Shown here: piece after piece, positions 51,202 through 53,817 of the stretch
Position numbering within the stretch: the first letter of the stretch is position 1
How the letters are laid out: the number at the start of each line of letters is the position of its first letter
Origin: Variovorax sp. PAMC26660
GTDB lineage: Bacteria; Pseudomonadota; Gammaproteobacteria; Burkholderiales; Burkholderiaceae_C
Length of the DNA stretch: 64,000 nt
Direction: 5' to 3'
Assembly (NCBI RefSeq): GCF_014302995.1
Contig: NZ_CP060295.1
Coordinates: forward strand, 1,488,001-1,552,000
Program-made: the position numbers and the translations under genes
The notes under the pieces: model-generated
The model's database searches: none
What the model saw: only the letters and a program-made list of their open reading frames with translations
What the model was told of the DNA's origin: nothing

Positions 51202-52170
51202 ATGACCATCTACTTACTTCCAGCAGGTAACGCCCGCAAACCGGGCGATCTTAACGACCCCTCGGACGACCCCGAGGAGGTGGCCGAGCGCGACCTGAAT
51301 CCCCCCTGCGTGCTGGTGTTCAATGCCAGCGATCCGAGCGGGGCCGGGGGCCTGGGCGCCGACGCGCTGGCCATGGCTTCGGTGGGGGCGCACGTGCTGC
51401 CCGTGGTCACTGGCGCCTACGCCCGGGACACGGCCGAGATATTCGACCACTTTCCCTTCGACGAGGAAGCCATCGCCGAACAGGCGCGGGCCATCCTGGA
51501 AGACGTCGAAGTCCAGCTGATCAAGGTGGGCTTTGTCGGCTCCCCCGAGGCGCTGAGCACCATCGCCGAGACCGCCTCCGACTACCCCGAGGTGCCCCTG
51601 GTGGCCTACATGCCCAACCTGTCGTGGTGGGACGAGAACCTGATCGAAGGCTATCTGGACGCTTTCCGCGAACTGGTGTTGCCCCAGACCACGGTGTTGG
51701 TTGGCAACCACAGCACCCTGTGGCGATGGCTGCTTCCCGACTGGAGCGGCGAGCGTCCGCCCGGCGCGCGCGACATCGCCAAGGCGGCCGGCGAGTTCGG
51801 TGTGCCCTACACGCTGGTCACAGGCATGGTGCTGCCCGATCAGTTTATCGACAACGTGCTGGCCTCGCCACAGTCGGTGCTCACCAGCGAGAAATACGAG
51901 CGGCTCGAAGCCATCTTCGCCGGCGCCGGCGACACCCTGTCGGCCGCCCTGGCCGCGCTGCTCGCGAGCGGCACCGACCTCGTGGCCGCGACGACCGAGG
52001 CACTGGCCTACATGGACCGCTGCCTCGACGCGGGCTTTCGCCCCGGCATGGGCCACGTGCTGCCCGACCGCCTGTTCTGGGCCGAGCCCGAAGACGACGA
52101 GGACGATGACGATGACGACCCCGACGCCACGCCCGATTTCGCCTTGCCTCCTCACGACACCCGTCATTAG
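51202..52170 (+). CDS. thiD: Hydroxymethylpyrimidine/phosphomethylpyrimidine kinase, ThiD-like
   Basis: A 322-residue ribokinase-fold kinase that would phosphorylate HMP and HMP-phosphate in thiamine synthesis. The start of the fold is CVLVFNASDPSGAGGLGADA, where ThiD has S-D-P-x-G-G-A-G-I-Q-A; the catalytic C-terminal motif is FAGAGDTLSAALAALLASG (G-x-G-D). About 40 extra residues precede the fold, and the C-terminus is a run of Asp/Glu (PEDDEDDDDDDPDATPD) not found in classical ThiD. The sequence is relatively divergent, so a related pyrimidine or sugar kinase is possible. It is divergent from rubredoxin. Confidence 0.82.
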   Translation: MTIYLLPAGNARKPGDLNDPSDDPEEVAERDLNPPCVLVFNASDPSGAGGLGADALAMASVGAHVLPVVTGAYARDTAEIFDHFPFDEEAIAEQARAILEDVEVQLIKVGFVGSPEALSTIAETASDYPEVPLVAYMPNLSWWDENLIEGYLDAFRELVLPQTTVLVGNHSTLWRWLLPDWSGERPPGARDIAKAAGEFGVPYTLVTGMVLPDQFIDNVLASPQSVLTSEKYERLEAIFAGAGDTLSAALAALLASGTDLVAATTEALAYMDRCLDAGFRPGMGHVLPDRLFWAEPEDDEDDDDDDPDATPDFALPPHDTRH

Positions 52171-52530
52171 GATGGGACCTCGGGCTCGGTGCGTTGCTCT
52201 GGTTCGGGGCGCCGCTGTTCGGTTCAGGGTGACGCTCACGCCGACACGGGGCTCTTTTTCGCGAATGTCCCCCGCTTCGCTCCTCCTTTATTTAGCTAAA
52301 AAGAGCCCCGTATCGACGTGAGCGCTCAGAGCGGTCGTTGATCGCAGGATCAATGGCAGCGTGCCCCTGTGCGAATGACGCCGGGTGTTCCCCGCAGCGA
52401 AATAAAGGAGGAGCGAAGCGGGGGACATTCGCGGAGGGGAGCACCCGGTGTCATTCGCACTCGCCCTGAACAGCAACGCCCCAACGAACACAGCCCCGCA
52501 CTCCTTCCACAAAAACTTCCCGAAACCTCG
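52171..52530. repeat. Composite palindromic element in the thiD-hemL gap
   Basis: Six arms occur in the order A-B-A'-C-B'-C'. A (52231-52259) and A' (52298-52326) pair at 25 of 29 positions, ending AGAGCCCCGT. C (52369-52388) and C' (52441-52460) pair at 18 of 20. B (52260-52293) and B' (52400-52433) are perfect 34-base inverted repeats, containing GAATGTCCCCCGCTTCGCTC. B forms the loop of hairpin A-A', and B' the loop of hairpin C-C'. Thus two hairpins have different stems but perfectly complementary loops. No protein is encoded. It may be a repeated extragenic element in opposite orientations. Confidence 0.85.

Positions 52531-53817
<1,287 letters not shown>

Follow-up and report, generated by a model that had tools for sequence, protein, structure and literature searches.

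A probable REPIN-like repeat of two inverted hairpins with conserved internal loops in Variovorax

Through sequence analysis of the window, a 64,000-nt stretch of the Variovorax sp. PAMC26660 chromosome, a composite repeat has been identified upstream of hemL, and it is one of about 165 copies in this genome. It is best explained, with a probability of roughly 0.6, as a REPIN-like non-autonomous mobile repeat that is recognised as a folded single strand, probably of DNA. The element is very probably a mobile repeat and very probably selected as a folded single strand; single-stranded DNA is the likelier acting strand compared with RNA, and a RAYT protein, the only candidate enzyme found and not directly linked to the element, is a doubtful agent. 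Two folded units facing each other about 105 nt apart make up one element. In the proposed mechanism, a host-encoded nuclease or transposase binding single-stranded DNA would read the internal loops and spread the element, and newer copies may overwrite older ones by conversion.

Structure and location of the element

The initial annotation described two hairpins with unrelated stems and perfectly complementary 34-nt segments, and the two segments (52260-52293 and 52400-52433) are indeed exact reverse complements. The stem arms (52233-52265 with 52292-52324 in hairpin A, 52369-52401 with 52428-52460 in hairpin C) measure 33 nt and are 88% complementary in each hairpin. The 34-mer has two matches in the window and none in any of 100 shuffles. 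Its description as a 34-base loop holds for the complementarity and only in part for the loop, since some of its bases pair with each other as a 5-bp helix (GCGAA/TTCGC) or as a small hairpin at the tip.

The conserved core of the repeat extends over 52223..52470 (unstranded) and is bounded by TTCAGGG and CCCTGAA; conservation falls off beyond these borders in an alignment of 47 copies, in which copy 3156012 was entered in the wrong orientation. The successive parts are: (i) the outer arm of hairpin A (52233..52259, plus strand); (ii) the inverted 34-mer (52260..52293, minus strand, reading AAATAAAGGAGGAG-tip-CGGGGGACATTCGCG) with its tip mini-hairpin (52274..52280, minus strand); (iii) the inner arm of hairpin A (52298..52324, plus strand); (iv) an unstranded spacer (52325..52368), the sequence of which varies across genera; (v) the inner arm of hairpin C (52369..52393, plus strand); (vi) the direct 34-mer (52400..52433, plus strand) with the tip mini-hairpin GCGAAGC (52413..52419, plus strand), interpreted as a C(GAA)G triloop and replaced by other tips in other species; (vii) the outer arm of hairpin C (52436..52460, plus strand). 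In the window, hairpin A is imperfect in the 5-bp helix, with AGCTAA instead of GCGAA. The 34-bp pairing between the two segments, put forward earlier as a possibility, is predicted when the whole element is folded as one plus-strand RNA (-151.2 kcal/mol versus -48.6 and -61.8 for the separate hairpins).

The repeat occupies most of an unstranded inter-gene segment (52171..52530) that is not present in relatives, with a GT-rich left flank and an AC-rich right flank. The segment is bordered on one side by an HMP-P kinase-like gene (51202-52170, PF08543), on the other by hemL (52531-53817, TIGR00713), and the feature, annotated as lying just upstream of hemL, ends 70 nt before that gene. The invariant strand at 52400-52433 includes AAAGGAGG, a perfect Shine-Dalgarno core, and its GG-A-GG ... 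GGGGG tracts could in principle form a two-layer G-quadruplex.

Copies in the genome

A search of the 7,388,698-base chromosome, as the initial annotation had suggested, revealed 169 forward and 168 reverse matches to the 34-mer (at most 3 mismatches) and 0 + 0 matches to the reversed control pattern. The segment is therefore not unique, and alignment of the flanks demonstrated complementary arms at other copies too. The 1.6 Mb read contains 117 hairpins, 57 head-to-head pairs and 3 unpaired units; all 57 pairs combine one A stem with one C stem, at a loop-to-loop gap of 104-109 nt. A portion of 1.264 Mb holds 96 hairpins (47 head-to-head pairs and 2 unpaired), and the 47 pairs align as a single repeat of about 250 nt, in orientations of 24 versus 23. 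The architecture is fixed. The stems, annotated as variable, do differ from one species or genus to the next, but nearly all hairpins read in this genome (116 of the 117) belong to two stem types.

No overlap with a predicted ORF, according to a crude gene caller, was observed for 35 of the 47 pairs. Their gene contexts are ++ 13, +- 11, -- 7 and -+ 4, and for 31 of the 35 one or both neighbouring genes end at the gap, as against 356 of the 492 gaps of at least 50 nt. Copy-specific palindromic flanks were considered as well and found no support, the mean score being 9.77 for flanks of the same element and 9.54 for mixed flanks. One element, at G000:C1:658544-660246 (L028, L029), has its C and A hairpins 1.7 kb apart, with unrelated DNA replacing most of the spacer; the two ORFs tested there matched no Pfam or NCBIfam model. 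On the A side, an outer extension (CTTGCTTTTCTGTTCGTCGCGTTGTG, e.g. G000:C1:1618715-1618740) often follows, by eye, an ATG near an upstream stop codon, and its 3' part was found in 19 of 57 copies.

Fold, covariation and strand preference

In each folded unit a long stem leads to an internal loop of 3x3 nt (GCA/GGA), followed by the 5-bp helix, a second internal loop rich in purines (ATAAAGGAGGAG/CGGGGGACA) and the tip hairpin. Inside the 34-mer, the bases outside the 5-bp helix and the tip hairpin form conserved internal loops. The flanking strings AAATAAAGGAGGAG and GGGGGACATTCG are almost invariant across copies, partly because the search pattern required both, and the region between them is hairpin-like by eye in almost all matches listed. 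A C(GCA)G or C(GAA)G triloop was scored in 22 of 47 distinct tips by a script that misread the commonest tip as (AAG).

Covariation was analysed in a set of 40 hairpins, two of which come from other Variovorax and the remaining 38 from other genera. All 200 cells of the 5-bp helix are paired in this set, and 467 of 480 cells in the 96 own hairpins; together with the 20-bp lower stem, 96.5% of 1000 cells are paired in the 40 hairpins, the cells in these counts and in those of wobble pairs below not being independent, as the copies are related. Both sides change in 22 of the 25 helix pairs. The covariation score is 0.779, compared with 0.194 (sd 0.014) for shuffled data, reached in 0 of 500 shuffles, and with 0.085-0.197 for slid structures. 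Exchange of arms among copies from other genera reduces pairing from 0.956 to 0.610. The suggestion made from the single locus, of a repeated element selected for its structure, is supported by the arm exchange and covariation analyses: the loop is fixed and the stems covary.

Wobble pairing in the lower stem is strand specific. Read on the AAATAAAGGAGG strand, G.T exceeds A.C by 130:9 in the own hairpins, 76:6 in other genera, and 100:10 and 232:37 in other Variovorax; with distinct arm pairs counted once, the ratios are 88:9, 76:6, and 89:10 and 177:36, respectively. The excess holds for each own hairpin type (74:4 and 41:5) and in five untyped own hairpins (15:0). Because G.T exceeds A.C on the same strand of both hairpins, each seems to be kept as a folded single strand; given their inverted arrangement, either strand of the element would be kept for folding in one of the two hairpins. 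This pattern argues for DNA, with RNA as a further possibility; alternatively, the wobble excess could stem from a strand-biased C-to-T change. GNA triloops are exceptionally stable in DNA.

Presence and absence among relatives

A hemL match was identified in 61 of 61 Variovorax genomes; 30 loci were taken, and 27 had a readable upstream region (this genome and 26 others). The element is present at hemL in this genome and in none of the 26 readable relatives. Measured from the anchor, the inter-gene stretch spans 383 nt in this genome, as against 16-62 nt in 18 relatives; in the 8 that carry another repeat it spans 119-150 nt. That different, GC-rich repeat (GCTCGCCCCCAGGC...) occupies the hemL junction in L274, L278, L281, L284, L286, L287, L288 and L290 (8 of 26), and a longer form of it was matched 6 times in the 1.6 Mb read here. 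Of 12 own elements compared with the syntenic genome G444, six could be aligned on both flanks, and at none of these six sites (hemL and five others) does G444 carry the element; the inserts at the five others resemble the one at hemL. The reverse case was observed at two places, with the element in YR752 or Root411 and not in this genome. Comparison of six sites by eye gave no clean target-site duplication. Copy number, spread and these differences in presence between species support the REP-like or MITE-like dispersal first surmised; a recombination target, named alongside it, is a role the element could also have.

A cis-regulatory RNA switch of hemL, suggested by the 70 nt between the element and the gene, can be dismissed with near certainty and is excluded as the general function, because the element is missing at 26 of 26 readable hemL sites and about 165 copies lie elsewhere.

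Homogenisation of stems at shared sites

Some insertions are shared between species. The outer flanks of 23 of the 35 orthologous hairpins were compared; they are alike (score 33.1 versus 10.2), 19 of the 23 scores surpassing the 95th percentile for mixed pairs, and the insertion therefore predates the species split. The stem arms at shared sites differ, as seen by eye at nine aligned sites, most clearly at L045 and L099, where matched changes occur in both arms. For KBW07, 17 hairpins were compared (L054 being left out of 18). Identity in the arms amounts to 0.741 with the orthologue, to 0.747 with non-orthologous own copies of the type and to 0.925 among the own paralogs, the stems being no more like the orthologue than like other copies. 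The paralogs are closer than the orthologue in 17 of 17 hairpins (17 of 18 with L054); in 6 of the 17 the orthologue scores above the mean of the non-orthologous copies. At L054 the stems have been kept, being 0.98 alike to the orthologue and 0.81 to the own paralogs; the own copy is of the rarer variant type and is perhaps an unconverted relic. Mean identities to the orthologue are 0.807 for YR752 (3 hairpins), 0.635 for Root411 (8) and 0.763 for EL159 (6), in a comparison restricted to the closest paralogs (ten or five), which biases its identity figures upward. Stems are homogenised species by species, with counts for one genome pair and weaker comparisons for three others.

A tentative extension is that of a self-overwriting DNA element, in which a single-stranded DNA recombinase would read the internal loops only and newer copies would convert older ones in place. 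If so, the helices would be free to change, and each species would rewrite both stems at scattered loci while the positions persist. The element offers a test of dispersed-repeat homogenisation in a bacterial genome. It is also a natural experiment on shape recognition, in which the helices have been varied by evolution, the unpaired bases are fixed and the folded strand is identified.

Distribution

In the family sample the element was found in 38 of 399 genomes, five of them Variovorax, representing 15 of 141 genera. It was also found in 2 of 369 genomes of the class sample, including this genome, and in 71 of 100 Variovorax genomes, where copies per genome range from 0 to 327 over the hundred, all of these counts being lower bounds as the searches required exact flanks. 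Exact copies of the motif are all from Variovorax among the matches listed. In other genomes the inverted pairs have a gap of 100-112 nt in 24 of 26 cases, the other two measuring 62 (with N) and 67 nt; a further adjacent pair, L157, is in direct order. No carriers were detected among phage records and no match to the exact pattern among viral contigs; the plasmid carriers are three Variovorax replicons of 1.2-1.3 Mb. A literature search, thin in subscription papers, returned no paper on the repeat and none with the four motif strings. Against Rfam 15 no family reached its gathering score, and the permissive hits are miRNA models far under their cut-offs.

Among 55 neighbouring proteins in other genera, no transposase was recognised by eye. 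A common neighbour gene was rejected, as only 8 of the 55 proteins are mutually similar (ABC-transporter ATPase-like) and the others are varied; ABC-transporter ATPases are common in bacteria of these groups.

Relation to known elements and alternative explanations

The copies are numerous, mostly intergenic inverted doublets, the arrangement typical of REPs and REPINs. This genome encodes one Y1_Tnp gene, a RAYT-like HUH transposase; with 74.5 bits, its protein stays below the NF047646 cut-off of 80 bits. A Y1_Tnp match is present in 96 of 100 Variovorax genomes, exactly one in 93, whatever the copy number of the element and also in genomes with zero matches. Thirty Y1_Tnp loci drawn from the 96 genomes (28 RAYT-like and two stronger IS200-like hits, L330 and L331) carry no element within 1.5 kb of the gene.

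With REPINs or BIMEs and their RAYT (TnpAREP) the element shares inverted doublets in hundreds of intergenic copies, strong conservation of a motif accompanied by compensatory changes, alternative folds, and one RAYT-like gene in nearly all genomes. PMC8266576 defines a REP as a palindrome of 20-50 nt preceded by a tetranucleotide, mostly GTAG, and PMC3116915 describes two alternative folds for REPINs. In contrast to REPINs, the unit here is about 90 nt and the element about 250 nt long, the conserved part is an internal loop and not the palindrome, no copy adjoins the RAYT gene, and the stems at the same site are rewritten between species. Nor was a GTAG tag found on the conserved parts AAATAAAGGAGGAG and GGGGGACATTCG, where GGAG is only loosely alike. 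A strict REPIN mobilised by RAYT, with an unusual REP, would account for the inverted doublets, the single Y1_Tnp gene (93 of the 96 Variovorax having any) and the two folds; it is rather unlikely given the 0 of 30 loci, the gene in genomes without the element, the missing tag and the protein score under the cut-off.

Another explanation is a structured RNA, each hairpin of which would stabilise transcripts, behave like a terminator or bind a protein, and would have spread for that use. Covariation and G.T tolerance fit RNA equally well, and the frequent gene ends beside the copies also speak for it. However, of two inverted hairpins one per transcript is in the folding sense, yet both types are kept, and the GNA triloop tips and the lack of an Rfam family at gathering score likewise make such an RNA improbable. 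A MITE of an ordinary DDE insertion sequence is less probable still: it would have short inverted ends, as seen in TTCAGGGCG/CGCCCTGAA, but of 57 copies 19 have the outer motif GTTCGTCGCGTTGTG (at most 3 mismatches) on the A side and only 1 has it on the C side. No insertion sequence with matching ends and no autonomous partner was found, the 21 places of the A-side end motif all (21 of 21) lying beside an element, and the MITE mechanism leaves the covarying helices and the wobble polarity unexplained.

Folded single-stranded DNA is also known from other systems. The end hairpins of IS200/IS605 elements, HUH elements with single-stranded DNA transposition, are not known to be mutually inverted. 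A strand-specific folded strand with unpaired recognition bases would fit them; the present element differs in being paired and inverted, with no transposase gene recognised within or beside it. Integron attC sites, which are recognised in a folded, single-stranded form, combine a variable sequence with unpaired features that are conserved, and the element can be likened to them on general grounds, although no cassette array was seen and its layout is paired and inverted. ERIC, NEMIS and other long palindromic repeats are dispersed intergenic imperfect palindromes; the element is set apart from these, again on general grounds, by its modular build of two hairpins, in which the internal loops are conserved and the helices vary.

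Assembly at the repeat

So many hairpins may interrupt assemblies built from short reads: copies contain the ends of several Variovorax contigs, and two spacers contain N. Short hairpin spacings at L088, L091 (Root411) and L320 coincide with N bases and may represent assembly collapse at the hairpins, the short spacings in Root411 being possibly in part an assembly artefact.
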